A stretch of 64,000 nt of DNA, taken from NCBI RefSeq assembly GCF_000499285.1, contig NZ_AWUN01000005.1, positions 1-64,000 on the forward strand. Direction: 5' to 3'. Shown here in pieces: positions 30,280 through 44,983 of this stretch; position 1 is the first letter of the stretch, and every line of letters begins with the position of its first letter. Source of the stretch: Bifidobacterium sp. 7101 (GTDB taxonomy: Bacteria; Actinomycetota; Actinomycetes; Actinomycetales; Bifidobacteriaceae). The notes below the pieces were generated by a model. The model searched no databases and was not told where the DNA came from. It saw only the letters and a program-made list of their open reading frames with translations. Position numbers and translations under genes: made by a program.

Positions 30280-31153
30280 GCCTATCTTTTCCCTGGAGGT
30301 CTTTCCCCCCAAGCGTGATGCCCCGGTGGGCACCATCTACGACACTCTGGATGGGCTTGAAGGGTTGATGCCCGACTTCATCTCGGTGACCTACGGGACC
30401 GGACGACGCTCAGACCGCACGGCCACGGCCCGCATAGCCAAGACGATCCATACCGAGTATGGCATCCCTGCCGTGGCGCACTTGACCGCCCAGTATGCGG
30501 ACCGCGAGGTGATCGATCAGGCCCTGGATATGTTCGATGACGCAGGGGTGGCAGCGGTGCTGGCCCTGCGGGGCGACAGCGTGGAGGGCCGTGAGCCCGC
30601 CGGAGTCTTCGACCACGCCAGCGACCTGGCTGCCTACATCCGGTCCCGTCGGCCAAACCTGTCGATATACGGGGCCTGTTATCCCGAGACCCACCCGGAG
30701 GCCGCCTCGCCTGAGGAAGACATTGAGAATCTGCGAATCAAGGTCGATTCCGGCGTGGACCATCTGGTTTCGCAGCTCTTCTACGACAACGCCGATTTTC
30801 TGGACTTCCTGGACCGGGCTCGTGCAGCGGGCATTCAGGTGCCCATCGAGGCCGGCATCATGCCCATCACCAACGAGGGCCAGGTCCGGCACATGAGCGA
30901 GGTCTGCAAGGCGCGGATCCCGGCGGCTGTTGAATCCATCCTGGAACGCTGGGGTGACGACCGGGCCAGCCTGCGCGAGGCGGGCATCATCTACGCCTCT
31001 CAACAGATTGCCGACCTGGTGGCTCATGGGGTGGACGGCATCCACCTCTACTCCATGAACCACTCGGGGGTCACCAGGCGCATCTGGCACAACGTCCGTC
31101 ACCTCTTCCGTCAAGTGGGCGCCAAGGAGGAGCCGGCAGACTCAAATCGGTGA
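30272..31153 (+). CDS. metF: Methylenetetrahydrofolate reductase
   Basis: A 293-residue MetF that reduces 5,10-methylene-THF to the 5-methyl-THF used by MetE. It begins with [11 protein letters not shown], whose glutamate is the conserved acid (about residue 9). It has [19 protein letters not shown] (about 38-56), [14 protein letters not shown] and [22 protein letters not shown] 30272 with AGGAG eight bases upstream lies within the metE end, giving an eight-base overlap and translational coupling. It is the last core gene before the low-GC mannan locus, and the next gene is convergent at 31183. Confidence 0.96.
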
Positions 31154-31182
31154 CAGATTCCTTCCGTTGAAGTCACCGTGGT

Positions 31183-32976
31183 CTATTTATCAGCTACGGA
31201 TATTGCCTTACAAAAGGGTGGAGCAGGGAGGCCGGCATCATTCATTAATGGTGCTGGCCCCCATCCATGCCAAGCGTAACGAAGCCATCGTGGATTTCTG
31301 ACCTTGTTCAATGTCAATATGATGATTCTGCAGTCTTCTGGCTTACCAAAAGGTTGATGTGATTGCCCTAATGGCATGCAAGATTGCCTGTCTGAAAACG
31401 GTAGAATCTTCGCTGCAACCGGATAAAACAGGCCATCAGCCCCTGCCGCTTCAAAACCAGATTCTCCTGCCTCTCTCCAATCAGAGGAATGAACAGTCTC
31501 AGCATGCCGCAATCCTGGCATCTTCGCACTAAAGTGCATACCAGCAGCATGAACCATGCGCACAGACAGATGGACTGGGTCAATTTTCCTCGGCCCGAGT
31601 GGGCTCGGTCCATTTATCGGTAGTCCCTGTTGACCGTACACCCAGTGAAGGGCATGAACTGCCAAACGTTCACCTGGGGTGCGCTTGTCCTTCGGATGCA
31701 GGTTATGTTCCTCCCCGCAATCCATCAGACATACTGTGTGCACAGCACTCCTTGCCTGACTCATCGACCATTGCGCTTTTCTGATACGGGGCCAATCGGA
31801 GTCTGTTACCATGTCGTCTTCACCTTCTGAGGGCGACCACTGGGGCAGTTGGACAATAAAGAACGGCAGCTTTTTCTGCGCAGCACTATCAGATGTGCTG
31901 ATCATATGATCCGGTAGCTGCCATAAAGACCTCCACCGGTCTATAAGCAAGCCAAGCAAGGTTTGGTAAGTCGAGCTAAATGGCCCATCTTCTTCTCCCT
32001 GGTACCAAAGAATACCTGCCAGCGCATAGGGGGCTGTCCGTTCAAGCATGGAGGCAAAAGCCCCCGTTGGACGATATTGAGAGTGCCTGGTCATTGGCGG
32101 CGGCCACGGGCATTGGCCGCATGCCGAATTGATCTCTTCGTCTGATATTCCGGGATACGCCTGCCGTATTTCCGATACTCGGTTGTTCCACGCATCAAAG
32201 GTTGTTTGCCACGATTCAGCTTGAGCTTCCAGCTCTTCGTCAGTGTGACCCGATACTGTTCTACTGAAACGATCCAGATAGATCCGTCCTTCCGGACAAG
32301 ATTGCAATGTCTCTTGATCAAGCCAGACGGCTATTGAGGTACCGCCTATGTAGCAATCGATGATTCCCACTGCGGTCTTTACGGGTAGATGCTTGCGAAG
32401 CTTGCGGGCAAAGTAGTAGGCCACTGCAGACATTTGTCCGCTTGTTTTCGGTTCGCAGCTGTTCCAGCCTGCCTGAGCTTCTGCTTGCCTGTCTATACGA
32501 CCCGTCTGAGGAACCTGGTAGAACCTGATCAACGGGTCTTGGCTCTCGGCGACAGCAGTTGCTCCGTTGGCGCTATCCGCTAAGCTCAATGCCATATTGC
32601 TTTGACCTGAAGCCATCCATACTTCACCAATCATCAGATTCTTCAGATTAATGCACTCTTTTTTGGTGCGAACGGATAGGTTGTACGGCCCCCCGGATTG
32701 GCATGGTGGAAGAACTCCCAGCCATTTTCCGCTGATTTCGACCTGACAGGTTGTGCTGATTGATCCGGTCAATCGATCAGGGTTGGTCGGAGTTAATTCA
32801 ATATGTACCGCATCTTCCGGTTGACCCCATCCGAAGATCGGGATTGGTTTGTAACTTTGCAGAACTGCACCATCAGTGAAGATGGCAGCAAGCTGTAATT
32901 TATGATGGTTGAAGTCGGTTGCAGGCACTTGCCTTCCCTGCGCACCACTTGCGTTTTTGCAATCCTCTTCTGTCAT
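31183..32976 (-). CDS. DUF303/sialate O-acetylesterase-like carbohydrate esterase
   Basis: A 597-residue intracellular esterase of the DUF303 SGNH type. The nucleophile block is GEVWMASGQSNM (serine in GQSNM), and GIIDCYIGGTSIAVWL is the oxyanion block. LWYQGEEDG carries the Gln-Gly-Glu motif typical of the family. No signal peptide is seen. In this locus the likely job is removing acetyl groups from imported manno-oligosaccharides; sialic acid use is not supported, since no sialidase or Nan genes are near. TTG 32997 and GTG 32994 are upstream options, but AGGAAAGG fits ATG 32976. The start lies near the stop of the CE2-like gene. Confidence 0.82.
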   Translation of the reverse strand: MTEEDCKNASGAQGRQVPATDFNHHKLQLAAIFTDGAVLQSYKPIPIFGWGQPEDAVHIELTPTNPDRLTGSISTTCQVEISGKWLGVLPPCQSGGPYNLSVRTKKECINLKNLMIGEVWMASGQSNMALSLADSANGATAVAESQDPLIRFYQVPQTGRIDRQAEAQAGWNSCEPKTSGQMSAVAYYFARKLRKHLPVKTAVGIIDCYIGGTSIAVWLDQETLQSCPEGRIYLDRFSRTVSGHTDEELEAQAESWQTTFDAWNNRVSEIRQAYPGISDEEINSACGQCPWPPPMTRHSQYRPTGAFASMLERTAPYALAGILWYQGEEDGPFSSTYQTLLGLLIDRWRSLWQLPDHMISTSDSAAQKKLPFFIVQLPQWSPSEGEDDMVTDSDWPRIRKAQWSMSQARSAVHTVCLMDCGEEHNLHPKDKRTPGERLAVHALHWVYGQQGLPINGPSPLGPRKIDPVHLSVRMVHAAGMHFSAKMPGLRHAETVHSSDWREAGESGFEAAGADGLFYPVAAKILPFSDRQSCMPLGQSHQPFGKPEDCRIIILTLNKVRNPRWLRYAWHGWGPAPLMNDAGLPAPPFCKAISVADK

Positions 32977-32990
32977 CAGAGCCTTTCCTG

Positions 32991-34151
32991 TCACCAAATT
33001 CTGCTGCCTAACCCCTGAATAAAAGCCACAAGCTCATCAGCCATTTCCTTCTGTTCGCTTATCCGAGGATGACCGCTTGTGGCAATGCCATTGCGACGAT
33101 ATACAAGATGGTGAATACAGGACCGGTCTAACTCGCGGCATGCATCCTCAATGGCCTGGTCCCAATGCTCATCGTGGGACAGGACGGAGGTGGCGGTTAT
33201 GATTTGTGCTTGAGGATAGGTTTCCAGAAGAGTCCGCAGAAACTTTGCATAGCTCCGCCGCCAATGTTCAGCCTGCGATCCTGAGTAGTCTTGAGCCATG
33301 AAATCTCTAGGGTAAGCATCATTCTGGCCAAGGGCGACGATTACCACCTGCGGTTGGTATCGTGAAAAATCCCAGGGTTTGCAAGGACCGATAAACGAAT
33401 TGTATTCAATTTTATTCCAGATACTCTCCATGCCAATGGCTTGTGGTGCCTGGAACCAGCCAATGCCATCAAGCAGAGCGGCCCCGCCCTGTGAAACGTC
33501 ATGGAGCTGTGCCCCCAGCGATCTTGCTGCAATAGCGGCGAAGGAATACCAAGCATTGCTATATGAACTAAGATCTGCTGATGGATCCTCGCGGCCTGCA
33601 TACAGGCTGGCTTCATTGCGCTCTCCGCAAGCGATTGAATCTCCGAAGACCTCCATTCGTCGTTTTGGCGGCTGTTCTTTATCGGGATACAGTTTTGCTG
33701 ATTGTTCAAGCATGATTCCGGTTAACTTAAGATAATGCTGTCCATCCTGACGCTTGAATATTACTGCTTCATGCTCGATGTCAGGCAGGTTGTCAGCTAT
33801 GGTTACTTCTACCGAATATGGCGATACAGCTGAATCAGGCCAGACAAAATCTTGATCTGCGACAGGCACGTTCCTTTGTGACGGACAATGCACGAGGTCT
33901 ATTCGATATTCAAATCCGTCTATAAATGCACCTAGACAGCTGGTTCCATATTGGCGTGCGTTTATCAGCCGGACACCAAGGTACTTTCCGGTGAATCTGA
34001 ATCTGACCTGAGTATATGGAAAGACCCATAATGGGCACTGATCAGCCTTCCAGTCCACCCTGCCCATGTATGTTAAAGACTTGTTTGCTGGCTTTATAAG
34101 TCGAAGTGTGTTCGCCTCGTTTGGCTTCGCATAGCTATCACTCAATGACAA
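32991..34151 (-). CDS. CE2-like SGNH acetylesterase
   Basis: A 386-residue two-domain esterase resembling carbohydrate esterase family 2. An N-terminal jelly-roll part (about 25-140) is followed by an SGNH domain with FGDSIACGE (Ser172), VSQGGAALLDG, VVIVALGQNDAYP and a C-terminal SGHPRISEQKEMA that supplies the histidine. The Asp normally two residues before the His is replaced here by serine, and CE2 enzymes can work with a Ser-His dyad. No signal peptide. CE2 members deacetylate mannans and xylans at O-6. The start codon is TTG (34151, or 34145, which has better spacing from GAGAGG). First gene of a two-gene minus-strand operon. Confidence 0.8.
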   Translation of the reverse strand: MSLSDSYAKPNEANTLRLIKPANKSLTYMGRVDWKADQCPLWVFPYTQVRFRFTGKYLGVRLINARQYGTSCLGAFIDGFEYRIDLVHCPSQRNVPVADQDFVWPDSAVSPYSVEVTIADNLPDIEHEAVIFKRQDGQHYLKLTGIMLEQSAKLYPDKEQPPKRRMEVFGDSIACGERNEASLYAGREDPSADLSSYSNAWYSFAAIAARSLGAQLHDVSQGGAALLDGIGWFQAPQAIGMESIWNKIEYNSFIGPCKPWDFSRYQPQVVIVALGQNDAYPRDFMAQDYSGSQAEHWRRSYAKFLRTLLETYPQAQIITATSVLSHDEHWDQAIEDACRELDRSCIHHLVYRRNGIATSGHPRISEQKEMADELVAFIQGLGSRIW

Positions 34152-34253
34152 CGCCTCTCATCCCAACGCCATTCGACGATGACAGACAGCAACCGTCGTG
34201 TTCGTCTCGAGGTCGAACGGCATGCAACATCACTGTTTGTGTTTATCAATTGA

Positions 34254-34282
34254 ATAATAACTGAACCGATTCATTGTTGCAA
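34254..34282 (-). promoter_or_regulatory. Promoter of the esterase operon
   Basis: On the minus strand TTGCAA (34282-34277) and TATTAT (34259-34254) are exactly 17 bases apart. The operator 34262-34273 fills the spacer, so a bound repressor would exclude polymerase. The start site would fall near 34247, about 95 bases before the CE2-like start. The rest of 34152-34616 holds the divergent promoter at 34447, a small hairpin AAGGCC/GGCCTT (34536-34554) in the leader and a 10-base palindrome ATTCCGGAAT (34501-34510); no gene is seen. Confidence 0.6.
34262..34273. promoter_or_regulatory. LacI-family operator candidate O1
   Basis: TGAACCGATTCA is a 12-base inverted repeat with a central CG and one mismatched pair, the usual shape of a LacI/GalR operator. 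It lies within an 18-base block (34257-34274) that is repeated identically at 43556-43573. The LacI gene of this locus (40981) is the likely binder. Confidence 0.65.
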
Positions 34283-34438
34283 AGTGCAATAAGGTAGGAT
34301 CGCTGGCATTTATAACTGAATGCCAGGATATGAACGGCGGGATGTTTTCGCTGTCTGCCCCAATATTGCAGCGATTTTGCTGGGAATGATTTTAGAGTGC
34401 GTAATAACCGAGCAAGAAGCAGGTTTGCAGAAATAAAC

Positions 34439-34450
34439 TTAACCGGTTGA
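34439..34450. promoter_or_regulatory. LacI-family operator candidate O2
   Basis: TTAACCGGTTGA keeps the AACCGGTT core and matches the TNAACCGRTTNA pattern shared with O1 and O3. It overlaps the -35 box (34447-34452) of the binding-protein promoter. Confidence 0.55.
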
Positions 34451-34475
34451 CAAAAAGACAGTGGGTTGCTATTTT
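34447..34475 (+). promoter_or_regulatory. Promoter of the sugar transporter operon
   Basis: TTGACA (34447-34452), a perfect -35, and TATTTT (34470-34475) are separated by 17 bases. The start site near 34482 leaves a leader of about 135 bases before the binding-protein gene. Operator O2 overlaps the -35. Confidence 0.7.
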
Positions 34476-34616
34476 GTCAAGTATCGACTCCATTCATGTG
34501 ATTCCGGAATGAATCGATGCTGAACTATTTCCAATAAGGCCAATAGGTGGCCTTTATCGGAACTGCTCAAAATGTCGCATAAGTGAATATCAGTGGATTT
34601 CAACGAGGAGATTTCA

Positions 34617-36020
34617 ATGAAGAATGCACGTAAGTTGATTGCAGTAGCCATAGCTGGCTTATGTTTTTGGCCCTTGTCTGGATGCGGAGGAACCGGGGGC
34701 GCTGATTCGAATACACAAGCGACAAACCTGAATTATGCTTCTATCAAACTCGGTACTACCGGAAAGGATATTCACACCAAAATTAAGCTTTTTAATCACA
34801 AAACAGACATGTCTGTTGATACTTATCCTGGGAAAAACTGGAAGCAGTACGTCGCTGATTTCAACAAGCTGTATCCAAACATCTCCGTTGAAGTTGAAAC
34901 CGATACCAATTATGCCGGCGATGCCTTAACGAGGCTGCAGGGTAAGGATTGGGGCGACATGATGATGATACCTGCAGTGGATCGTTCCGATCTCAGTACA
35001 TATTTCCTACCCTTTGGCACCCAAGAGGAGATGTCAAAGTTGATTCGTTGGTCCAATGCATCTGAATATGGCGGGAAAGTGTATGGCGTGCCGAGCAATG
35101 GAAACGGTCTTGGGATCGTCTACAACAAACGAATCTTCAAAGAAGCTGGGGTTAGTGAGAATCCAAAAACGCCTCAGGAATTTATACAGGCCCTGAAAGC
35201 TATTAAAGAGAAGACAAAGGCTATACCATTGTATACAAATTATGCTGCAGGTTGGACCATGGCAGCTTGGGACGGCTACATTGGCGTCAACGCCACTGGA
35301 GACGGGCGTTATATGAACCAGAAACTATTACACACCAAAAATCCGTTCTCTGATCCCGGAGATGACACCCACGCTTACAATGTCTACAAGATTCTTTATG
35401 ACGCCGTTTCAGACGGCTTGACCGAAGACGATTATTCCACGACTGACTGGGAGTCAAGCAAGGCCAAAATCAATCGAGGCGAAATAGCCACCATGGTACT
35501 AGGCGCCTGGGCAGTCTCACAATGCAAGAATGCTGCAGACCATCCAGACGATATCGGGTATATGCCATTCCCGATTAGCGTGAAAAACAAGCAATACACG
35601 GTTTCTGCTGGTGATTACGCATATGGCATCAATAGCCACGTGTCCAAGACTCGTCAAGAGGCATCCATGATCTTCATCAAATGGATGACCGAGCGTTCCG
35701 GTTTTGCCAAGAACGAGGGAGGCATCCCCACAGCGCAATCTGACAAAAGCATGCCTGACGCCTACAAGGAATTCTCGGATGTACATTTTGTAGAGGACCA
35801 GCCATCTGTCAAAGGTGAAGAGGATCTGTTCAATACTTTGAATTCTGACTCGGAGCTTGCTATTAACTCGGGCGGCAATGCGCGAATTCAAGCCATTGTT
35901 GAGCATGCTTCCAAGCATGACAAACCATACAATGACCTGGTCAAGGATTGGAATTCCAAGTGGAATGATGCTCTGAAAACCGAAGGCATCGAAGCGCAGT
36001 ATGACACTGCAAGCAAGTAA
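34617..36020 (+). CDS. ABC sugar transporter substrate-binding lipoprotein
   Basis: A 467-residue extracellular solute-binding protein of the carbohydrate (CUT1) type. The signal peptide has a basic start (KNARK), a hydrophobic core and the lipobox PLSGC, so Cys24 or so would be lipidated and the protein anchored outside the membrane. Family blocks include YAGDALTRLQGKDWGDMM, NGLGIVYNKRIFKEAGV and the closing domain with NRGEIATMVLGAW. AGGAG upstream supports ATG 34617. Two permease genes follow after a hairpin. The context suggests manno-oligosaccharide binding, which the sequence alone cannot prove. Confidence 0.93.
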   Translation: MKNARKLIAVAIAGLCFWPLSGCGGTGGADSNTQATNLNYASIKLGTTGKDIHTKIKLFNHKTDMSVDTYPGKNWKQYVADFNKLYPNISVEVETDTNYAGDALTRLQGKDWGDMMMIPAVDRSDLSTYFLPFGTQEEMSKLIRWSNASEYGGKVYGVPSNGNGLGIVYNKRIFKEAGVSENPKTPQEFIQALKAIKEKTKAIPLYTNYAAGWTMAAWDGYIGVNATGDGRYMNQKLLHTKNPFSDPGDDTHAYNVYKILYDAVSDGLTEDDYSTTDWESSKAKINRGEIATMVLGAWAVSQCKNAADHPDDIGYMPFPISVKNKQYTVSAGDYAYGINSHVSKTRQEASMIFIKWMTERSGFAKNEGGIPTAQSDKSMPDAYKEFSDVHFVEDQPSVKGEEDLFNTLNSDSELAINSGGNARIQAIVEHASKHDKPYNDLVKDWNSKWNDALKTEGIEAQYDTASK

Positions 36021-36041
36021 GTATCCACGCTGATCAAGAGG

Positions 36042-36068
36042 CTGCCGACGGTAAATAGCCGTCGGCAG
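36042..36068 (+). other. Intercistronic hairpin after the binding-protein gene
   Basis: A perfect 10-bp stem (CTGCCGACGG with its complement) and seven-base loop lie 21 bases after the stop. No T-run follows, so it is not a standard terminator. Such structures between binding-protein and permease genes commonly protect the upstream message and let the binding protein be made in excess. Confidence 0.75.
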
Positions 36069-36095
36069 TCCGGGCAAACCGAGGAAGAAGGAGTT

Positions 36096-37154
36096 ATGAC
36101 AGCTACAACGATTGAATCTTCGCTGTCTCCTGATGTTCCGGACAACAAGCGACCCTTTGATTGGCGAAAGGGCATCATCATCGTGGCCTTTTGCGCCATT
36201 CCATTGACACTTCTTGTTGTTTTCACCTACCTGCCTTTCGGGCAAATGGTTGGATTCAGTTTCTACCGAATGAAGTATATTGGTGTTCCCCATTGGGTAG
36301 GGTTGCAGAATTATCGCCAGATTGTGACGAGGCCGGACATACTGCCCTCTCTGAAACTGAGCTTATATTACATGGCGGGGTCAGTGCTACATATTTCACT
36401 GGCGTTGTATCTTGCAACCATACTGAGTTTCCGGGTACGATGCGGCAATCTTTTTAAGGGTTTGTTCTTCTTTCCTTACCTCATCAATGGTATAGCTGTC
36501 GGCTTTATATTCAAATTCTTCTACACAAGGGGTTTCATATTCGACAGCGTTCTTCAATGGTGCGGTTTCAGCTTGAACAGCCTGCCATATTGGCTTAAGG
36601 ATCAGTCCATCAACAACTGGTCATTGGTGGGTGCCTCTGTGTGGCGGTATATGGGCCAAACCATGATCCTGTTCATAGGAGCGATCATGTCGATCGATCA
36701 GTCGCTCTATGAGGCTGCCGAAATCGATGGGGCCAATAAGTTTCAGCAATTTCTACATATAATTCTTCCGAGCATCAAAACGATCCTGGTTTTGAATGTC
36801 GTGCTGTCGGTTACTGGAGCCCTGAGCGTTTTTGAGATTCCATTCGTTATAACCACTGGGGCCAACGGCACAGGAAGTTATTTCGTGCTTATGGACCGCA
36901 TAGCTCATACAAATCAAAAAGTAGGTTTGGCCTCGGCCATGGCTGTTGTCTTGTTGATTGTCATTTTGATATTCGCCCTTTTACAGCAGATCCTGTTCAA
37001 ATTCCTTTTCCGCAATCAGGATGATGGGGTTAAAGCAGCGAAAAGGCGTGCCCGCCGTGCCAAGCGTCAAAGGAACCGCATCGCTGCAGGAAAGGCGCCC
37101 TTGCTTACAAATGGTAGAAGACAGAGGGCTTACAGCCTGGAACGGGGGCAGTGA
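36096..37154 (+). CDS. ABC sugar transporter permease (MalF/UgpA type)
   Basis: A 352-residue permease with six predicted membrane segments (first at about 29-50). The coupling-helix EAA-like motif is YEAAEIDGANKFQQFLHIILPSI (about 205-227, quoted in part order E-A-A then G and P). The C-terminal tail is long and strongly basic (AAKRRARRAKRQRNR). CUT1 importers use two different permeases, and the partner is the next gene, whose ATG shares a base with this stop (TGATG). AAGGAG-type sequence lies before ATG 36096. Confidence 0.92.
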   Translation: MTATTIESSLSPDVPDNKRPFDWRKGIIIVAFCAIPLTLLVVFTYLPFGQMVGFSFYRMKYIGVPHWVGLQNYRQIVTRPDILPSLKLSLYYMAGSVLHISLALYLATILSFRVRCGNLFKGLFFFPYLINGIAVGFIFKFFYTRGFIFDSVLQWCGFSLNSLPYWLKDQSINNWSLVGASVWRYMGQTMILFIGAIMSIDQSLYEAAEIDGANKFQQFLHIILPSIKTILVLNVVLSVTGALSVFEIPFVITTGANGTGSYFVLMDRIAHTNQKVGLASAMAVVLLIVILIFALLQQILFKFLFRNQDDGVKAAKRRARRAKRQRNRIAAGKAPLLTNGRRQRAYSLERGQ

Positions 37155-38047
37155 TGCAGACGAAAAAGATGACCGCGACCATCGACAACCTAGGTCGATT
37201 CCGAGAGAATCCACCGGTCCTCAAGGATGCCGTCTTCAATGTGCTCAAATATGCAATACTGATATTCCTGGCTTTCTGGTTTATGCTGCCTTTGATAAGC
37301 TGTGTGATCACCGCGGCCAAGACAGATAAGGAATACGCCACAACCACAGTTACGCAGTTGCCAAAGAACTGGTTCAATATACAAAGCTATATCAATGCTT
37401 TTAATCTCTCCAATATGGGTAACGCCTTTAAGAACTCGATTATTATTCTTGTGGTCGTTTTAGTCTGTACTACCCTGATTGGCACGCAGCTTGCCTACGT
37501 TCTAAGCAGATTCACTTTTCCAGGCAATACCCTTATCCGAGGGCTGTTTACTGTGGCCGCCCTCTTGCCTGGCATTGCCATGCAGGTCGCCTTGTATAAA
37601 ATGATGGTTGGCATGCACGCGGTCAATTCGCTGTGGGGATACATCATCATGTCGATGGGCACCGATGTGATTTCCATATATGTTTTTATACAGTATTTTG
37701 AAAATATTCCAATTTCCTTGGATGAATCCGCGATAGTGGATGGTGCTTCATACTTCACCGTCTACTCAAAGATCTTGTTGCCCTTGCTTAAGCCTGCAAT
37801 CGTCACCTGCGTCATTCTGAAAGGTGTCGGAGTCTATAACGAGTATTATGCCGCAAATTTATATCTGCAAAGTGCGCATTTGAAGACCGTTGCCATAGCG
37901 CTGTATACTTTCACCGGTCCACAGGGAAGCAAATACAACCTTATTTGCGCAGGAGTGATTCTGACTCTGCTCCCGATGCTTGTGCTGTTCCTGCTTTTCC
38001 AAAAGCAGATATACACCGGTATAGCAGCTGGAGCAGTAAAGGAGTAA
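37154..38047 (+). CDS. ABC sugar transporter permease (MalG/UgpE type)
   Basis: A 297-residue permease with six membrane segments and a DESAIVDGASYFTVYSKILLP region (about 190-210) that carries the EAA-like coupling loop. The ending LLFQKQIYTGIAAGAVKE is the classic C-terminus of MalG-type CUT1 permeases. The start could also be GTG 37151. ATG 37154 was taken because it overlaps the upstream stop by one base. No ATPase gene follows anywhere in the locus, so the importer must borrow an MsmK-like ATPase encoded elsewhere. Confidence 0.92.
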   Translation: MQTKKMTATIDNLGRFRENPPVLKDAVFNVLKYAILIFLAFWFMLPLISCVITAAKTDKEYATTTVTQLPKNWFNIQSYINAFNLSNMGNAFKNSIIILVVVLVCTTLIGTQLAYVLSRFTFPGNTLIRGLFTVAALLPGIAMQVALYKMMVGMHAVNSLWGYIIMSMGTDVISIYVFIQYFENIPISLDESAIVDGASYFTVYSKILLPLLKPAIVTCVILKGVGVYNEYYAANLYLQSAHLKTVAIALYTFTGPQGSKYNLICAGVILTLLPMLVLFLLFQKQIYTGIAAGAVKE

Positions 38048-38082
38048 ATCACTCTCCCTAGCAAAACATAGATGTTGATGCA

Positions 38083-38112
38083 GAGGCGACAAGTTCAATC
38101 AACTTGTGCCTC
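38083..38112 (+). other. Intercistronic hairpin between permease and beta-mannosidase genes
   Basis: GAGGC-G-ACAAGTT pairs with AACTTGT-GCCTC around a CAATC loop, giving 12 base pairs with one bulged G. No T-run follows. It may be an RNA-stability or attenuation element separating the transporter message from the enzyme message. Confidence 0.6.
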
Positions 38113-38114
38113 GG

Positions 38115-38151
38115 TTATGAGAATTTAAGAGGCCAGGTATAAACCGGTCAG
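38115..38151 (+). promoter_or_regulatory. Possible internal promoter and weak operator before beta-mannosidase gene
   Basis: TTATGA (38115-38120) and TATAAA (38138-38143) are 17 bases apart. The -10 overlaps TAAACCGGTCAG (38140-38151), which matches eight of the ten fixed positions of the locus operator pattern. A start near 38150 would leave only about 20 bases to the gene. The -35 is poor, so this is tentative. Confidence 0.35.
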
Positions 38152-38167
38152 CCGTGGAGAAGGAACA

Positions 38168-40882
38168 ATGATGCCGTCTGGACAGTTGCAATCATCAAGT
38201 GATTCTGTGCGTTACCTATCACTCAACAAAGAATGGAATGTGCGGGCTCTCAACCCCGAAAAGGCCCCAACCAATCTTCGAGAAAGACTGCGTGAGGGTC
38301 TTCCTGCGGAAGTACCGGGGGAGGTTACCCTGGACCTTCTGCGGGCAGGTCTGATATCCGACCCATTTGATGGCGACAATGAGCAGATGCAACAGTGGAT
38401 CGGTGACATTGATTGGCAATACACATGTCATTTTTCATGGCATGAAGATGATCAGCAATGTCATGATTTGGTGGCCTACGGATTAGATACCGTGGCTTTG
38501 GTGCAGCTCAATGGCCGCATGCTCGGGACCTGCAAGAATTTTTATTGCATGTACCGGTGGAATGTTGACGGTTTTCTGCAACAAGGCGTAAATACGTTGG
38601 TCGTTACTCTGAATTCACCGGTTCAAGAGTGCGAAAAGCGCGAAAGGCTCATCGGGTATTATCCGCATACGGAGCATCACGCATTCAATCAACTGCGCAA
38701 GCCACCCTTCCAATTTGGATGGGATTGGGGCATTGATGTGGCCGGAGTCGGCGTATGGAGGCCAATTGGCATTGATTCTTGGTCACAGACAAGAATCCGA
38801 TCTGTACGTCCTTCCATACAAGTGCTGGATGACGGTACAGGAATTGCTGAGGTTCATGTCGATCTTGACTGGGCCGAATTTTCTGGGTCTCTGCCGGGCA
38901 AGCAACCACCTTCGGAGAATGCTCCGGTCGAATATCGGCTGACGGTTGAAGGCCATGGGACGAGAAAGACTGTGGAGGGAACCCTTGCCTATGGAGTCTC
39001 CGAGCTTGTTTCGACCGTGAGAGTTCCTCATGTCAATCTGTGGTGGCCACGCGGGTACGGGAAACAGCCCCTATACAATCTGTGTGTGCGTGTCGGAACG
39101 GCCGAATGGAAGGGAAGAATCGGCTTTCGTACGGTAACGGTGGATACCAGGGCAGATAAAGATGGACGTCCTTTCCGTTTATATATCAACGGGCTTCCAA
39201 TTCACGCAAGAGGATTCAATTGGGTACCTCTGGATGCATTTATTTCCCGGGCGGATTCAGCGGCATATCGAGCCCGATTCCAAGATCTTGTCGAATCAAA
39301 CGCCAACATGGTCAGAGCATGGGGAGGCGGCATTTACGAAACAGATGAATTTTACGATCTAGCAGATGAGTATGGAATCCTGGTCTGGCAGGATTTCGCT
39401 TTTGCCTGCGCCGCTTATCCAGAAACAGCCGAAATGCGGCAAGAAGTCGAAACTGAGGCAATACAGCAGATAAGCAGATTATGCCCGCATCCGAGTCTGG
39501 TTGTATGGAATGGTTCTAATGAAAACTATGTCGCATATGCGCAATGGGGTGGTTTCAAACAGGCCTTGAACGACGATCAAGAACCGAAGAACGCATACGG
39601 GTATGGCGAAAAGGGGTGGGGAGATTATTACTATTCTACGCTACTGCCCAAACTGCTGAAGAGACTGGATAATACTCGGGTTTATCTACCAAGTTCTCCA
39701 ATGAGCTTCACTCCATTTGTGGACGCCAATGCCGATACGGATGGCACCATGCATATCTGGGATGTATGGAACAATGCTGATTACCATCGATACCGCGCTT
39801 ATCGCCCTCGTTTTGCCGACGAATTTGGATATCAAGCCCCACCGGCCTGGAGCACTTTGATGAGAGTGATCCACGATCCACAGCCCGGACCGTCCTCTCC
39901 TCATATGTTGGCCCACCAAAAAGCCTCGTCAGGCAATGAAAAACTGGCAAAAGGCATGCGGTCCCATTTGACTTCAGGACAATTTGATGACATCGCTTAC
40001 AATCTCGATGGGTCACGAAATTGGTTGATTCCTAGCGATCGTTGGAGTGATCTGGAGGATTGGCACTGGGCCTGCCAGTTGCAACAAGGGCAGGCAATTC
40101 GTTTCGGGCTGGAACACATGAGGTCATTGGAACCGCTTAATGCTGGAACACTGATTTGGCAGCTCAACGATGATTGGCCAGTTATTTCATGGTCGGCGAT
40201 AGACTACGACGGGCACAAAAAACCGCTTTGGTTTGTGGCGCGCTCATGCTTCGCTCCTTGCTTTGCAACAATTCAGCCGTGGACTTCCGATCAGATGTTA
40301 CAGGATCGGAGCTGGGAGGGTTCCCAGGTGGATCCAGACAGCCTCGCTCTTGTGCTGATAAATGACAGTATCTGTGACCATCATATGACTTGGAAGGTTG
40401 AACGACGTACCTTAGGGGGAACTGTATTAGCACAGCAGGTTTTCCAAGTCGATTTGGAGCGGCTGAGTAAAAGGACTCTTTTGCTGAATGACGATGTGGC
40501 AACCTGTTCTGATCCATATAATGAGCTGCTTGTGGCTACGCCGAATGGGCAAGGGTTCAGCGATCCGACATTTGCCAGAACCGTTTACGACTTTGCTGAA
40601 GTGATCGATCAAAGTTTGAATCCCAATCCTCTATCGGTAGAAGCAAAAATGTGTACAGATGGATATATTTTGAAAATTACGGCCAATGCGTACGCTCGCG
40701 ATATCTTTTGCATGGTTGACAAAATCGATCCTTCAGCCTCCATCGATGGCGGGATGGTCTCTCTGCTTCCCGGAGAGAGTCTGAGCTGGCATATAGCTTC
40801 GCGAAAGAAAGTGGATCCCCAGGTTTTTGCCCAAAAACGTGTGTTACGTAGCGCCAATGATTTGCGAGAAAGCCATCAGTGA
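38168..40882 (+). CDS. GH2 beta-mannosidase, cytoplasmic
   Basis: A 904-residue glycoside hydrolase family 2 enzyme. The sugar-binding N-domain includes the beta-mannosidase hallmark FQFGWDWGID (about 178-187). The barrel carries the acid/base Glu452 in WNGSNENYVAY and the nucleophile Glu552 in FADEFGYQAPP. The pattern EFGYQAPP, rather than the beta-galactosidase or glucuronidase versions, supports removal of terminal beta-mannose. No signal peptide, so it works on imported oligosaccharides. Two ATGs (38168, 38171) are adjacent, and AAGGA at 38160-38164 is better spaced for the second. It follows the transporter genes. Confidence 0.92.
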   Translation: MMPSGQLQSSSDSVRYLSLNKEWNVRALNPEKAPTNLRERLREGLPAEVPGEVTLDLLRAGLISDPFDGDNEQMQQWIGDIDWQYTCHFSWHEDDQQCHDLVAYGLDTVALVQLNGRMLGTCKNFYCMYRWNVDGFLQQGVNTLVVTLNSPVQECEKRERLIGYYPHTEHHAFNQLRKPPFQFGWDWGIDVAGVGVWRPIGIDSWSQTRIRSVRPSIQVLDDGTGIAEVHVDLDWAEFSGSLPGKQPPSENAPVEYRLTVEGHGTRKTVEGTLAYGVSELVSTVRVPHVNLWWPRGYGKQPLYNLCVRVGTAEWKGRIGFRTVTVDTRADKDGRPFRLYINGLPIHARGFNWVPLDAFISRADSAAYRARFQDLVESNANMVRAWGGGIYETDEFYDLADEYGILVWQDFAFACAAYPETAEMRQEVETEAIQQISRLCPHPSLVVWNGSNENYVAYAQWGGFKQALNDDQEPKNAYGYGEKGWGDYYYSTLLPKLLKRLDNTRVYLPSSPMSFTPFVDANADTDGTMHIWDVWNNADYHRYRAYRPRFADEFGYQAPPAWSTLMRVIHDPQPGPSSPHMLAHQKASSGNEKLAKGMRSHLTSGQFDDIAYNLDGSRNWLIPSDRWSDLEDWHWACQLQQGQAIRFGLEHMRSLEPLNAGTLIWQLNDDWPVISWSAIDYDGHKKPLWFVARSCFAPCFATIQPWTSDQMLQDRSWEGSQVDPDSLALVLINDSICDHHMTWKVERRTLGGTVLAQQVFQVDLERLSKRTLLLNDDVATCSDPYNELLVATPNGQGFSDPTFARTVYDFAEVIDQSLNPNPLSVEAKMCTDGYILKITANAYARDIFCMVDKIDPSASIDGGMVSLLPGESLSWHIASRKKVDPQVFAQKRVLRSANDLRESHQ

Positions 40883-40980
40883 ACCTTGGGCTACTAGAAT
40901 AGCTTGGTACGTGCTGCAATAAGTGCACGGGTCTGCATTCGCCCTCCTTTCCAAACTATGCATTGACGGGAGAACAGAGC

Positions 40981-42012
40981 ATGGTATTGCCGAAGTCGAA
41001 AGTGACCATTTCTGATGTGGCACAGGAGGCTGGCGTCTCCAACAGTGCGGTTTCGTATGCTCTCAATGGTAAACCCGGTGTTTCGAACAAGACCCGCCGA
41101 AAGGTATTGGACGTCGCCGAACATCTTGGATGGAGGCCTAATAGCGCGGCCAAGGCGCTTTCCGATGCCAAGACGCACAATGTGGGACTCGTGCTTACTT
41201 ACGATACCGGTATCCTGTCGGTAGAGTCCTACACAATGGAACTTATCGCAGGATTGACGACGGAGTTGGAAAAACAGGGTTATTCCCTGTTATTACGATC
41301 TTCGCAAAGTCGGCAACAGGAGGTGGCCATTCTCAAAGAATGGGTGAGTGCTGGCGCAGTCGATGCCATGTTGATCATGAACCTGGAGCTAGGCGATCCG
41401 CGGATGGATTTATTCAAACATCACCCTGATATGCCTGTACTGGCTTTATGCGATGTTTCCATTGCTGATGGGTTGCCGTCTTTGTCCGATGATGCTCAGA
41501 GTGCAGCCCATCTTATCGTCGATTATCTGCATGAATTAGGTCATCGACGGATTGCAAGGATAGCTGGACCCGAGACTTTGGAGCATACTTTCATCAGAGA
41601 CAATGCATTTGTCGAGGAAGTAGCGGAATTGGGCTTGCAGTACAGTTGTTTTCACACTGATTATTCACCTGACGAGGCGCGATCTAGTACAAAACGATTT
41701 TTGCAATTGCCCGAAAGGCCTACGGCCATCGTTTATGACAGCGATGTAATGGCGCTTTCTTCGCTCAAGACCATTGCGGACATGGGGCTGCGCGTCCCTG
41801 ACGACCTTTCGGTAATTTCATGGAACAATTCTTTTATGTGCGAGGTCGGCCTGCCCAGTATCACAGCATTGGACCGTAATGTTGTGGCGCGGGGTAGGAA
41901 AGCGGCTCAAATGATGCTGGCTTTGATTGCCGGAGACAGAGTCAGTTCTCAAAGGGAGGATGACTGCAGTCTCATTTTCCGTCAGTCGAGCGGTCCTCTG
42001 AGAATCCACTGA
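40981..42012 (+). CDS. LacI-family transcriptional regulator
   Basis: A 343-residue regulator. The helix-turn-helix TISDVAQEAGVSNSAVSYALNG begins at about residue 8, and the hinge helix RPNSAAKALSDAKTHNVGLVL follows near 47. The periplasmic-binding-protein-like effector domain includes VDYLHELGHRRIARIAGP and DVMALSSLKTIADMGLRVPDDLSVISWNNS. GGGAG precedes ATG 40981; the frame is open from TTG 40963. It is the expected sensor of a manno-oligosaccharide or mannose signal and the candidate binder of the three operators. It is convergent with the YesL-like gene. Confidence 0.93.
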   Translation: MVLPKSKVTISDVAQEAGVSNSAVSYALNGKPGVSNKTRRKVLDVAEHLGWRPNSAAKALSDAKTHNVGLVLTYDTGILSVESYTMELIAGLTTELEKQGYSLLLRSSQSRQQEVAILKEWVSAGAVDAMLIMNLELGDPRMDLFKHHPDMPVLALCDVSIADGLPSLSDDAQSAAHLIVDYLHELGHRRIARIAGPETLEHTFIRDNAFVEEVAELGLQYSCFHTDYSPDEARSSTKRFLQLPERPTAIVYDSDVMALSSLKTIADMGLRVPDDLSVISWNNSFMCEVGLPSITALDRNVVARGRKAAQMMLALIAGDRVSSQREDDCSLIFRQSSGPLRIH

Positions 42013-42054
42013 CTCTTTAGATACGAGTTAGTCATTCAACCGCATGTTCTACGA

Positions 42055-42684
42055 TCATGATGCAGGTCGAGGATGGATTCGAAGCAAAATTGTATTCGTG
42101 ATATATGCCGTGACACCTGTTCCCAAAACGCTCCATACAAGCAAAATGACAGGAAGCGCGTCAGGTGCAACGATCACGAGTATCAGAGGCAATAGCTTCA
42201 AAGCGGCTATTGTGCATGCGTATAAGGGATGGAGCAAGGACAACCGAGCTGAGTCGGTAATCAGTTGCAAAGCCTTTGCATCGCTCCGAGCGGCGAGCGG
42301 GAACACAAATGAACCAGCTGCCATTAACACAAATGAAGTCGTTACTACGATGCCGTAAGCCAGTGAAGACAAATCAGAGTCCATCATGCCGTTGGACAAA
42401 TACCATAGGTCAAAACCGGCCAAAAATACTATTGAAGCCATCACTATTGTCAATTTAAATGAACGTAATATATTGTTAAGCAGACCACGGAAGAATTGTC
42501 TGATCATATGGCTTCCTCGGCCAGTTTGAAGTTGTTCAATCTGAGTGTACAAGGCAGTGTCGGCTGCGCCTATGGTAACCAATGGTATGCAGGATATAAT
42601 CCAACAAATATTGAGTATAGACAAGTCTCCGATGGCTGACATTACGGTATTATACGGACTGTCCTGTCGAAACATAGAGGTCAT
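42055..42684 (-). CDS. YesL-like DUF624 membrane protein
   Basis: A 209-residue membrane protein with about five hydrophobic segments (18-45, 78-100, 105-130, 150-175, 178-200). The opening ILNICWIISCIPLVTIGAADTALY is the family hallmark. YesL proteins sit in many carbohydrate operons of Gram-positive bacteria, and their molecular job is unknown. GGAAGGTG decides the ATG at 42684, although the frame extends to 42726. It follows the unrecognised anchored-protein gene on the minus strand by four bases, so the pair forms one operon running away from the GH26 gene. Confidence 0.87.
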   Translation of the reverse strand: MTSMFRQDSPYNTVMSAIGDLSILNICWIISCIPLVTIGAADTALYTQIEQLQTGRGSHMIRQFFRGLLNNILRSFKLTIVMASIVFLAGFDLWYLSNGMMDSDLSSLAYGIVVTTSFVLMAAGSFVFPLAARSDAKALQLITDSARLSLLHPLYACTIAALKLLPLILVIVAPDALPVILLVWSVLGTGVTAYITNTILLRIHPRPAS

Positions 42685-42688
42685 CAGT

Positions 42689-43459
42689 TCACCTTCCACA
42701 CACAAACTTCGTGAATCGTACAGCATCCTGTTTGTGAGGACTATTCACTGCCAATCCAATGACTGCTTGATTGGGTGATGTGCTCTTGCCTTTTGCAAAT
42801 CCATATTTTTCGCTTTCTTTTTTCTGGTGCGGCCTCCAGTGCCGATTTTGGATGGAGTCGCAAATTAATCCATAAGGCTTTATCGGGCCTTTATCCATTG
42901 ATGCCTCTGCCTCGTCGTCTTGGCTGTCATCCCCTGGACCGGGCAATAGTGCTTGTTCGCCGAACTGATTGTCAGGAAAAATTTGGCTCAAATCAGTCAT
43001 ATATCCATAGTTGGCCAACTGCGCGAAGGTACTCTTGGGCGCAATGATCACATCGATGGTACCGGCACTAAGCATGGTTTGGAGTTTAGGAAGACCGTCA
43101 CGTGAAAAATCAAAACCGTCGTCGACAACCAAACCGGAATTATCATCTGCTTGCATATGCAGGGCAATTGCCGCTTGTGAATTCAACTCACCCGCTTCCA
43201 CATTCTCTATGGGATCATCAACAAGAGCCACGAATAACTTGGGGCCGGTAGCCGGGTGCAGAATGTGCATGGTCAGCCAGATCAACAAGCAGCATATGGT
43301 GATAATCGCGATGATTGGAATCGAAAAATGATCGATGAAGTAAGACCAGCGTTTCTTCCCTGAAAGCGACTGTAATACGGCGATCCGGCCTCCATTCCTC
43401 ACTGGAGACGATGCCAAGGCGTCCACGGCTTTGGAACGATGCTCTTTGGGTGCAGTCAA
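42689..43459 (-). CDS. Membrane-anchored protein with binding-protein-like outer domain, unknown
   Basis: A 256-residue protein with a basic cytoplasmic head, one membrane segment (about 47-68, IPIIAIITICCLLIWLTMHI) and an outer domain of about 185 residues. The stretch LSAGTIDVIIAPKSTFAQLANYGYMTDLSQIFP looks like a lobe of a solute-binding protein. The middle is acidic. I cannot name a family; similar single-span proteins occur beside YesL genes in other Gram-positives, by recollection only. The start is TTG 43459, fixed by AAGGAGG six bases upstream. It is divergent from the GH26 gene across a shared operator region. Confidence 0.78.
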   Translation of the reverse strand: MTAPKEHRSKAVDALASSPVRNGGRIAVLQSLSGKKRWSYFIDHFSIPIIAIITICCLLIWLTMHILHPATGPKLFVALVDDPIENVEAGELNSQAAIALHMQADDNSGLVVDDGFDFSRDGLPKLQTMLSAGTIDVIIAPKSTFAQLANYGYMTDLSQIFPDNQFGEQALLPGPGDDSQDDEAEASMDKGPIKPYGLICDSIQNRHWRPHQKKESEKYGFAKGKSTSPNQAVIGLAVNSPHKQDAVRFTKFVCGR

Positions 43460-43552
43460 TGCAATCCTCCTTTCAGCAGCTTCTTCGGAGCCATGGCATA
43501 CTCAGCAATAAGAAGCCGAATAGGCAAATTACTGGTCACAATGCTATATTTC

Positions 43553-43581
43553 AGTATAACTGAACCGATTCATATATGCGA
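43553..43581. promoter_or_regulatory. Divergent promoter region with operator O3
   Basis: Operator O3, TGAACCGATTCA (43561-43572), lies in the 18-base block shared with O1. On the minus strand a perfect-looking -10, TATACT (43558-43553), lies at the same distance from O3 as the -10 does from O1, though the matching -35 (TCGCAT) is poor. On the plus strand TTCAGT (43550-43555) and TATATG (43573-43578), 17 bases apart, could serve the GH26 gene with O3 in the spacer. The rest of 43460-43679 shows no gene. Confidence 0.5.
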
Positions 43582-43679
43582 CTTTGCCATGTTTAGATGC
43601 TTGTTGTTGTCACGAACCTTAGTCACGGCATCAGTTCAGAGGCTCTGATCGATAAAGCAACTGCCCGGAAGGAGAAGAC

Positions 43680-44849
43680 ATGCATCACATAGGGTCGCCC
43701 ATCGACAGCCATCCAACAGATCAGCTACTAACTCTATGCTCCCGATTAAGGCGATTTACCGGGAAGAAAACAATGCTCGGCCACCAGGACACTACACTTT
43801 GCCGACGCATGCACGAATGCGACAGTGATGTTGCGACTCTTACGGGAGCATACCCAGCAGTTTGGGGGTTTGACCTGGGACGTACTGAATTGGGCTGGGA
43901 AAAGAATATCGATAATATTTCTTTTGCGCGTATTCATCAAGAGGTTTCGCACGCGCACGATATTGGTGCAATTCCCACCTTTACATGGCACTCGGTAAAC
44001 CCGATTACCAGCGGTGGATACGGCAGTAATACAGCTCCAGGCTCTGTTTGCGCAGTGCTGCCGGGAGGCGATTGCCATGGACGCTTTCTTGACTGGCTTG
44101 ACCGAGTGGCGATAATGCTCAACTCTTTGACCGATGACGATGGCTTACCGATTCCAGTGGTCTTTAGGCCTTTTCATGAGCACAATGGCACCTGGTTCTG
44201 GTGGTCCCTCGGTTCCCGCATGGGGACAACTGACACCTCAGAAGAGGAGTTCAAGCAATTATGGCGCATGAGTATTGATTATTTAAGAAACAGTTGTGGT
44301 ATTCACCATGTGCTTTATGCCTATTCTCCAGATCGCAGCAGAATAGACTTAACCAATGAAACTGCTATAACAGAGGAATATCTTTACGGGTATCCGGGTG
44401 ACGACTATGTCGATGTGCTCGGAATCGACGATTATTGGGACATGGATCAGCATCCTTCGGGCACAGATCCAGCAAAGCAGCATGAGGAGCTTATTACTAT
44501 GCTTACACTGGTCGGACGTCTCGCCGAAAAGCATGGCAAGCTTGCAGCTGTTACCGAAATCGGTTCGCCAGGAGCTTTCGCGTCAAGACTGAACAATGGA
44601 AAAGATGGGGATGAAGTATATGCTCCCCGTCCTTGGACAGGCTATTTGCTTTCCGCCTTGGAAGCGAACCAGTTCACTGCTCGAATGCTATGGTGCCTTC
44701 CATGGCGTAATTCCTTGGAGGGTGAAGGCACAGGTGCTTATGGAACCCCTTCTGCTGCTTCTCCTTACGCACGAGATTTTATCGATTTTGCAGAGAGCCA
44801 GCGCATCGTCCTTATTAAAGAGTCGGCAAAATTGCCAGCTGACGAATAA
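43680..44849 (+). CDS. GH26 beta-mannanase-type glycoside hydrolase, cytoplasmic
   Basis: A 389-residue single-domain GH26 enzyme. KKTMLGHQDTTL (about 29-40) is the usual N-terminal strand, the acid/base is Glu167 in FRPFHEHNGTWFWW, and the nucleophile is Glu293 in AAVTEIGSPG. There is no signal peptide, cell-wall anchor or binding module, so it should act inside the cell on short imported manno-oligosaccharides, as exo-type GH26 enzymes do. Other GH26 activities (beta-1,3-xylanase, mixed-linkage glucanase) cannot be excluded, but the nearby beta-mannosidase supports mannan. AAGGAG is well placed before ATG 43680. Confidence 0.92.
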   Translation: MHHIGSPIDSHPTDQLLTLCSRLRRFTGKKTMLGHQDTTLCRRMHECDSDVATLTGAYPAVWGFDLGRTELGWEKNIDNISFARIHQEVSHAHDIGAIPTFTWHSVNPITSGGYGSNTAPGSVCAVLPGGDCHGRFLDWLDRVAIMLNSLTDDDGLPIPVVFRPFHEHNGTWFWWSLGSRMGTTDTSEEEFKQLWRMSIDYLRNSCGIHHVLYAYSPDRSRIDLTNETAITEEYLYGYPGDDYVDVLGIDDYWDMDQHPSGTDPAKQHEELITMLTLVGRLAEKHGKLAAVTEIGSPGAFASRLNNGKDGDEVYAPRPWTGYLLSALEANQFTARMLWCLPWRNSLEGEGTGAYGTPSAASPYARDFIDFAESQRIVLIKESAKLPADE

Positions 44850-44915
44850 GCCATTATTTATAGAAAACTCGGTATTGCCTTGACGTTCCCACTGGGGCTG
44901 ACGACCCGTCATCCC

Positions 44916-44921
44916 TATAAT
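44916..44921 (+). promoter_or_regulatory. -10 box of glnE
   Basis: TATAAT, a perfect -10, lies about 60 bases before glnE. The -35 position (TGGGGC, 44893-44898) is poor, so an activator or extended contacts may be needed. It marks the return to core DNA after the mannan locus. Confidence 0.45.
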
Positions 44922-44983
44922 GCCTGTACTGGTTCCGCAGACTTCACATTTTTTGCGGGCCTGAGGAAGGCAGGGGATAAGTC

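Follow-up and report, generated by a model that had tools for sequence, protein, structure and literature searches.

The 64,000-nucleotide stretch of Bifidobacterium sp. 7101 analysed here, which we call the window (RefSeq assembly GCF_000499285.1, contig NZ_AWUN01000005.1, positions 1 to 64,000), carries between the core genes metF and glnE a low-GC block of ten genes whose gene families make it a variant of the mannan-oligosaccharide loci known from bifidobacteria and clostridia. We consider it likely that this block is a LacI-controlled cassette for the uptake of manno-oligosaccharides (MOS), acetylated ones included, and for finishing their breakdown in the cytoplasm, and that it replaced an older cassette with a ChvE-type binding protein. 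In the mechanism we propose, a surface lipoprotein solute-binding protein (SBP) would bind MOS freed by other bacteria or enzymes, two permeases and an ATPase encoded elsewhere would import them, and a membrane pair, the MusI-like protein and an anchored protein that we call Anch, would assist the importer. Inside the cell, a CE2 and a CE20-like esterase would remove acetyl groups, an exo-type GH26 enzyme would free mannobiose from which a GH2 enzyme would then yield mannose, and mannose would enter central metabolism through mannose-6-phosphate isomerase. MOS in the cell would make the LacI regulator leave the TKAANCGNTTMA-like sites that serve the esterase operon, the importer and the divergent promoter between Anch-MusI and GH26.

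The gene content of the block provides the basis for this reading. Gene calls combine open reading frames (ORFs) with homology, and signal peptides were judged by eye and hydropathy. By Pfam and NCBIfam the order runs metF, SASA-type esterase, CE2_N and GDSL esterase, SBP_bac_1, two BPD_transp_1 permeases, GH2, LacI, DUF624/MusI-like protein, a protein with no hit, GH26 and glnE (Table 1), in agreement with the gene list of a preliminary description of this DNA, whose YesL-like protein is the DUF624/MusI-like one. In a PDB search the nearest solved relatives of the SBP are BlMnBP1 and its paralogue BlMnBP2, both matched over the full length; BlMnBP1 aligns across residues 31-462 at E 4.9e-172 (576 bits), the next PDB entry of another kind reaches 65.5 bits, and the BlMnBP1 entries were crystallised with mannotriose and mannopentaose. 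For the SBP start, the ATG at 34617 is preferred over the listed GTG at 34593, since the ATG gives a lipobox. Solved beta-mannosidases match the GH2 protein at E 2.9e-108, and its NGSNEN and ADEFGYQ blocks are conserved in 17 of 17 aligned rows. The GH26 protein scores 149.3 bits against a Pfam gathering cut-off of 20.2 and lies nearest to CjMan26C (E 2.7e-60), followed by 4zxo (E 8.8e-57), which we take to be BoMan26A. Its HEHNG and TEIG blocks align with those of CjMan26C, and we assume that their glutamates hold the catalytic roles; the glutamate replaced by alanine in the 2vx7 chain, presumably the nucleophile, aligns with a glutamate in the window protein. Its closest relative points to a putative exo-type, mannobiose-releasing enzyme, the characterised mannobiohydrolases being CjMan26C, BoMan26A and RsMan26H as far as the available text of a review lists them (PMC10492685).

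Table 1. Coordinates in the window of the cassette, its genes and its regulatory sites
Feature	Position	Strand	Basis
Whole cassette / replaced stretch	~31137..44893 (approximate)		Eight metF-glnE slot alleles compared
CE20-like acetylesterase (SASA family)	31183..32997	-	Pfam SASA 47.4 bits; PDB CE20 entries; no signal-peptide-like start
CE2 acetylesterase	32991..34151	-	Pfam CE2_N + Lipase_GDSL_2; no signal-peptide-like start
LacI-type operator-like site TGAACCGATTCA, near CE2-CE20 operon	34262..34273	+	Pattern match
LacI-type operator-like site TTAACCGGTTGA, overlapping -35 box of importer promoter	34439..34450	+	Pattern match
Importer promoter-like site, TTGACA + 17-nt spacer + TATTTT	34447..34475	+	Sequence
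Lipoprotein SBP, BlMnBP1 homologue, putatively for beta-manno-oligosaccharides	34617..36020	+	Pfam SBP_bac_1; PDB; lipobox LSGC
Importer permease A, CUT1 type	36096..37154	+	Pfam BPD_transp_1
Importer permease B, CUT1 type	37151..38047	+	Pfam BPD_transp_1
GH2 beta-mannosidase-like enzyme	38168..40882	+	Pfam GH2 domains; no signal-peptide-like start
LacI-family regulator	40963..42012	+	Pfam LacI + Peripla_BP_3
DUF624/MusI-like membrane protein, five transmembrane-like stretches	42055..42684 (ORF listed to 42726)	-	Pfam DUF624; NCBIfam MusI_fam
Anch: N-terminal part, one transmembrane helix, domain weakly like part of a solute-binding protein	42689..43459	-	Model, hydropathy
LacI-type operator-like site TGAACCGATTCA, between Anch-MusI and GH26 (divergent)	43561..43572	+	Pattern match
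GH26 glycosidase, closest to a mannobiohydrolase	43680..44849	+	Pfam GH26; no signal-peptide-like start

The two esterases extend the predicted substrate range to acetylated oligosaccharides. The CE2 protein scores 57.0 bits for CE2_N (cut-off 27.9) and 35.6 for Lipase_GDSL_2 (cut-off 32.9), matches a solved CE2 esterase at E 1.5e-13 and keeps its GDS and GQND blocks in 11 of 11 rows; with 86.1 of the 500 bits that NCBIfam sets for the AxeC2 equivalog, it is not assigned there. In Roseburia, according to the accessible text of PMC10492685, a CE2 enzyme deacetylates mannan by removing 3-, 4- and 6-O-acetyl groups, and CE17 takes the 2-O-acetyl group. The CE20-like protein matches PDB CE20 entries at E values down to 7.7e-45 by sequence, and its AF2 model resembles XAC1771 (E 4e-35) and other CE20 structures, with a predicted SGNH domain between two beta-sandwiches, the serine in GQSNM (residues 131-135) and the histidine in N-x-H (432-434) of the (D/N)xH type. 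Among ten related rows GQSNM is kept in nine, the other row being cut there, and N-x-H in all ten. In fold and motifs it is like the CE20 enzymes XacXaeA and Fl8CE20_II described in PMC12313940, of which part was available; unlike those CE20 enzymes in which the known ancillary domain is a beta-sandwich in the SGNH domain, its insert at about residues 235-293 is predicted to be helical (model pLDDT 73) and its neighbours are mannan genes. The ancillary-domain clusters come from Bacteroidota and Proteobacteria in the same source. The genome context suggests a role for the CE20-like enzyme on acetylated mannan, next to a CE2 enzyme whose Roseburia partner is CE17.

By eye and hydropathy, none of GH26, GH2, CE2 and the CE20-like protein has a signal-peptide-like start or a transmembrane stretch, which would place the breakdown steps, and probably GH26 itself, in the cytoplasm. 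The genome, 2.12 Mb in 16 contigs and presumably of the honey-bee B. asteroides group, has one match to type I mannose-6-phosphate isomerase. The original substrate proposal, acetylated beta-mannan oligosaccharides, is strengthened by the BlMnBP1-like SBP and by the mannan-deacetylating Roseburia CE2; extracellular breakdown of the polymer is not explained by the block, since its GH26 enzyme lacks a signal-peptide-like start.

The composition of the block sets it apart from its surroundings. Between 31183 and 44849 GC is 48.6%, against 63.5% in the rest of the window, with sharp edges and metF and glnE on either side. In 500-bp steps the ranges are disjoint, at 0.426-0.534 in the block (n=27, mean 0.486) and 0.550-0.694 in the remaining window (n=100, mean 0.635). 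GC at third codon positions (GC3) is 0.46-0.57 across the ten block genes against 0.73-0.84 in six neighbour genes, and the codon-usage distance to these six is 0.19-0.26 for block genes against 0.06-0.12. These measures agree with the lower GC and different codon use first described for the metF-glnE interval, where both base counts given (27 of 60 at 35341-35400, 40 of 60 at 25021-25080) are exact. The borders drawn at that time, 31183-44849, enclose a real block, and comparison of alleles corrects the replaced stretch to about 31137-44893. On the left, metF homology to the non-mannan alleles compared ends 16-28 bases ahead of the metF stop; on the right, about 90 bases before glnE, its promoter region, are retained by eye in all eight alleles compared. 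The two border points are identical across these eight alleles, which are of three kinds. A mobile element or tRNA-linked island was rejected as the vehicle: no integrase was found among the genes scanned, no tRNA target lies at the block (the sole tRNA of the window, at 138-227, was also its only RNA element), and no repeat pair flanks the block within 30900-45300.

Across 27 genomes of the genus, among them B. mellis Bin7N, B. polysaccharolyticum W8117 and B. aquikefiri LMG 28769, this slot has alternative contents. The mannan cassette occupies it in three, the window genome, B. mellis and B. polysaccharolyticum, the latter two with GH26 proteins 87% and 82% identical to that of the window; a GH26 relative of 44-46% identity lies outside the slot in B. 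aquikefiri and G024. In the other genomes the distance from metF to glnE is 7.0-7.5 kb in ten, 8.7 kb in G010, about 1.1 kb in three and less than 1 kb in nine; in G017 the two genes are on separate contigs. In 11 of the 27 (the ten genomes at 7.0-7.5 kb and G010) the slot contains a ChvE-type binding protein with 77-100% identity to the G011 one, of which the three mannan carriers have no full-length match. Seven regions were read gene by gene. The G011 slot, the one annotated with Pfam, holds Peripla_BP_4, an ATP-binding cassette (ABC) ATPase, BPD_transp_2, a ROK regulator and a second ATPase. A small membrane-protein frame is kept in the 1.1-kb state of G009, and the same frame adjoins metF in G011. 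B. mellis and G011 are sisters, with support of 100% in the combined tree, 100% in the glnE tree and 84% in the rpoB tree; step by step their metF genes are 90-100% and their glnE genes 92-100% identical, and the slot contents between them differ. This pattern probably reflects the displacement of an older ChvE-type ABC cassette by the mannan one, for which homologous recombination in the core genes on either side would be the simplest route.

The alternative that no transfer took place, the cassette being an ancestral low-GC locus of the bee-associated group that was lost or displaced in most species, we regard as unlikely, although some points favour it. The three carriers do not form one clade in the rpoB, glnE or combined tree, whose inner supports are weak, and among them the synonymous distance (dS) of cassette genes is 0.08-0.61 (25 of 30 values at 0.26-0.50), resembling the range for part of glnE and for metF, 0.22-0.42. 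These values give no sign of a very recent exchange between the three, the CE2 value of 0.08 between the window and B. mellis being a low outlier. An ancestral locus would also suit the bifidobacterial ancestry of the importer, GH2 and LacI genes. Against it stand the presence of the cassette in only 3 of 27 genomes and of the ChvE-type protein in 11, including the more distant G013, G014, G023 and G024; the GC3 of all three carriers, which is about 0.5 in the cassette where metF and glnE have 0.71-0.83; and the sister pair of B. mellis and G011, with its like flanks and different content.

As for the source of an incoming cassette, the SBP, permease, GH2 and LacI sequences were concatenated for a tree with five loci from outside the bifidobacteria, which contribute SBP and permeases only, as its root. 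In this tree the cassette falls inside the Bifidobacteriaceae, next to G159 (support 89) and on a long branch; for GH2 and for LacI alone, midpoint-rooted trees were built as well. A distant donor was rejected as unnecessary, since the importer, GH2 and LacI genes covered by these trees fall inside the family and the low GC does not call for one. An unsampled lower-GC bifidobacterial lineage fits as the source. The earlier proposal of acquisition by transfer is refined by the alternative contents between the same borders and needs no distant donor for the importer, GH2 and LacI genes, and the locus is not a feature of all relatives with normal composition, being present at this position in 2 of 26 other genus genomes with equally low GC3.

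Some further features of the slot and of related loci were seen. Among the carriers, the nonsynonymous distance (dN) is 0.06-0.14 for the CE20-like, MusI, Anch and GH26 genes against 0.006-0.027 for the SBP and permeases; both cassette edges, at 31183-32997 and 42055-44849, thus evolve faster than the importer. The glnE gene beside the G010 slot is a mosaic, its first ~1.2 kb being 54-77% and the remainder 86-95% identical to two relatives. The related loci of B. aquikefiri (L027 8810-15959) and G024 (L028 4267-9045) have extra genes between SBP and GH26, namely an AraC regulator, a second GH2 and an AP_endonuc_2-type gene, and in B. aquikefiri an arabinofuranosidase-like gene lies directly past GH26 (Pfam on L027 alone).

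Operator-like sites, present at three promoters of the cassette and in corresponding positions in relatives, suggest that the cassette is probably one regulon under its LacI regulator. The sites around 34257 and 43556 share 18 identical bases, and both hexamers of the importer promoter are retained in B. mellis and B. polysaccharolyticum. The pattern TKAACCGRTTSA has four matches in the window against 0.05 expected, a contrast that is not independent because the pattern was derived from the window's own sites; three matches lie in cassette promoters and the fourth, at 53353, inside a pyrD-like ORF. Genome-wide, the narrow pattern has eight matches against three for its reverse; contexts were read for all but three, and the exact match at G000:C1:326790 is within a coding frame. 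The comparison with relatives used 350 bases upstream of genes in 17 bifidobacterial loci (the window and 16 of 17 fetched, one 3-kb fragment being excluded). With at most one mismatch, TKAANCGNTTMA occurs upstream of the SBP in 17/17, CE2 in 11/11, Anch in 12/13 and GH26 in 5/9; exact copies occur at the SBP in 5/17, CE2 in 11/11, Anch in 11/13, LacI in 1/16, GH26 in 3/9 and GH2 in 0/17. For SBP, CE2 and Anch together, 27 of 41 upstream regions have the exact site, relatedness being ignored; 200 permuted palindromes gave 0.195 on average and at most 11. The SBP and CE2 genes are frequently served by a common promoter region, and their counts therefore overlap and are not independent. The suggestion that the whole acts as one system is supported by these shared sites.

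The divergent arm of the cassette encodes a second point of interest, a membrane pair that we read, from its sequences and gene neighbourhoods, as a putative importer accessory. The MusI-like protein passes the Pfam DUF624 threshold (35.9 against 24.2 bits) and stays below that of the NCBIfam family MusI_fam, NF052431 (116.4 against 160 bits). Anch, previously noted as an unknown anchored protein, indeed has one membrane helix and falls into no Pfam or NCBIfam family, SBP families included. About 38 N-terminal residues precede its transmembrane stretch and the remaining domain is predicted to be extracellular; a model built on 28 sequences (pLDDT 78, pTM 0.67) predicts one long helix (34-67), then a domain of alternating strands and helices (75-255). 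A Foldseek search of the PDB with this model gave no match at E <=0.001; the best matches were mostly sugar ABC binding proteins, partial, with a best E of 1.5e-3 (prob 0.99) and TM-scores of 0.20-0.38 among the ten best, and a viral fold library gave E 0.13 at best. The modelled likeness of Anch to solute-binding proteins thus appears real but weak.

In the best-scoring 30 of the 73 genomes with an Anch match, a MusI/DUF624 gene follows Anch directly on the same strand at 30 of 30 loci. Among 20 further regions, six strong matches have MusI; the 14 weaker ones have no neighbour by the MusI hidden Markov model, and by eye a DUF624-like frame follows two of them. Eighty loci chosen by SBP similarity contain 21 Anch genes, of which 12 are bifidobacterial and all beside MusI; the other nine, mostly from Lachnospiraceae, include two beside MusI, and some adjoin the importer without MusI. 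A search of 396 sampled Actinomycetota at E 1e-8, with the best few candidates per genome scored, found Anch in the window's own genome only. Of 189 genomes of the family, 39 have a strong-class Anch (cut-off 80 bits, set after a gap between 81.1 and 53.3 bits was seen), 37 the MOS-binding protein and 35 both (Fisher p 3e-31, relatedness ignored); in 29 of the 35 the two genes are on the same contig, 4.6-14.0 kb apart, and in six on separate contigs. A second, distant Anch-class gene of the window genome stands behind another permease pair (L145 5310-8085, G000:C1:95309-98084).

As the leading but tentative possibility, the pair would be an unrecognised accessory of the MOS importer in which Anch is a tethered, cut-down SBP that docks on the permeases beside the SBP or in turn with it, and, jointly with MusI, enables the importer or gates it; such a pair may have evolved in a mannan gene pool of Bifidobacteriaceae and Lachnospiraceae and travel with the cassette. 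That the two form instead a sensor pair for extracellular MOS, or are unrelated membrane proteins that happen to move with the cassette, seems somewhat less probable still: the predicted extracellular domain and the ~38-residue part ahead of the membrane stretch would suit a sensor, but Anch tracks the importer, 35 of 37 SBP genomes having Anch and 35 of 39 Anch genomes having the SBP, it has an operator-like site upstream in 12 of 13 loci, and MusI is the last-named part of the maltose ABC importer of Corynebacterium glutamicum in the available text of PMC10101108. Like MusI of that MusEFGK2I importer, the window protein is a DUF624 membrane protein tied to a sugar ABC importer; unlike it, it scores below the family cut-off and is paired with Anch. 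Gardnerella Mus clusters contain further 'hypothetical proteins' (PMC10101108, in the text available). With one part that has no family name, the pair points to a two-protein accessory that could change how gut sugar ABC importers are drawn.

Several observations weigh against the reading of the block as a MOS cassette that displaced a ChvE-type one. In the window, B. mellis, B. polysaccharolyticum and some other bifidobacterial loci, a histidine stands at the position inferred by alignment to be Asn63 of BlMnBP1, the subsite-2 residue that tunes mannobiose binding, so that the asparagine typical of that protein is absent; BlMnBP2, with glycine there, still prefers mannotriose (PMC8106489, available portion). 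No ATPase, beta-glucosidase or alpha-galactosidase is encoded in the block, and no genome search was made for them; an ABC ATPase is likewise absent from the Pfam results for the ten block genes. With up to one mismatch, TKAANCGNTTMA is also found upstream of LacI in 10/16 and of GH2 in 3/17 loci, and the permutation control covered exact matches only. The word mannan is absent from the main text of the CE20 paper PMC12313940, as far as it was available. The order of the slot contents in each lineage would rest on inner branches of the rpoB and glnE trees, which are weak.

Two further alternatives concern what the cell does with mannan. Primary degradation of mannan by this strain, through extracellular enzymes encoded elsewhere in its genome, is improbable. 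The N terminus of one GH5 protein (662 aa) looks by eye like a signal peptide, the closest PDB entries to that protein are cellulases, and some cellulase-type GH5 enzymes cut glucomannan; however, the single GH26 match in the genome is that of the cassette, and of the two GH5 matches one is nearest to cellulases and the other to 6xrk ('Glycoside hydrolase type 1'), followed by cellulases and a xyloglucanase. No convincing secreted mannanase was found in the genome by GH26 or GH5; GH113 and GH134 were not searched. For Faecalibacterium prausnitzii, growth after mannanase pretreatment and none on intact glucomannan or galactomannan is reported (PMC8262883, text in part). Very unlikely is a different beta-mannoside as substrate, such as the mannose-beta-GlcNAc core of N-glycans or microbial mannan, with esterases acting on other acetyl groups: the SsCE20_IV locus predicted for N-glycans in the available part of PMC12313940 has GH2 and GH26 alongside CE20, and the histidine for Asn63 could alter SBP specificity, but the solved proteins nearest to the SBP have manno-oligosaccharides in their crystals, an exo-mannobiohydrolase is the nearest relative of GH26, and Pfam finds no hexosaminidase or fucosidase among the ten block genes.

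Taken as a MOS cassette, the block can be set beside known systems. Both it and the locus of B. animalis subsp. lactis ATCC 27673 combine an ABC importer with a putative beta-mannosidase, and their MOS-binding proteins are closely similar. By the review description (PMC8106489, text in part), the B. lactis locus has a second binding protein, a beta-glucosidase and a GH5 mannanase; the window has a single SBP, two esterases and a GH26 without signal-peptide-like start. With the mannan loci (MULL) of Roseburia and Faecalibacterium it shares a MOS ABC importer of the same family and intracellular finishing, and the non-bifidobacterial loci that we fetched have SBPs 50-60% identical and, in many cases, CE2. 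F. prausnitzii differs in using CE17, GH113 and GH130 phosphorolysis with an epimerase where the window has CE20-like, GH26 and GH2 enzymes (accessible text of PMC8262883). Our searches covered the open literature and not subscription papers; no title about this locus turned up, and we found no description of CE2 paired with a CE20-like esterase in mannan loci, of the operator set that recurs, of alternative contents at metF-glnE or of the Anch-MusI pair. The available text of PMC4449606, which counts xylan and mannan enzymes among the accessory genes of honey-bee bifidobacteria, has no passage on this locus that we found; the available main text of PMC4746261 on Bifidobacterium regulons (10 genomes) has no mannan or mannos- term, and neither mannan nor GH26 occurs as a term in the main texts of PMC9429759, PMC10092428 and PMC8597283. 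Among the DUF624/YesL and musEFGK2I papers listed, no title or abstract start mentions an anchored partner, and the literature search for MusI as a whole word with maltose and Corynebacterium found no paper. A slot with alternative contents, differing even between sister genomes, offers a molecular explanation, open to test, of why strains of bee-gut bifidobacteria differ.

Two other loci of the window genome were seen in passing. Around G000:C1 49587 (L166) a cellulase-type GH5 lies between frames that by eye are GH31-like and GH43-like, and near G000:C1 326790 (L201 134-3010) a protein of ~950 aa has, by eye, RCC1-like repeats and a sorting-like C terminus.

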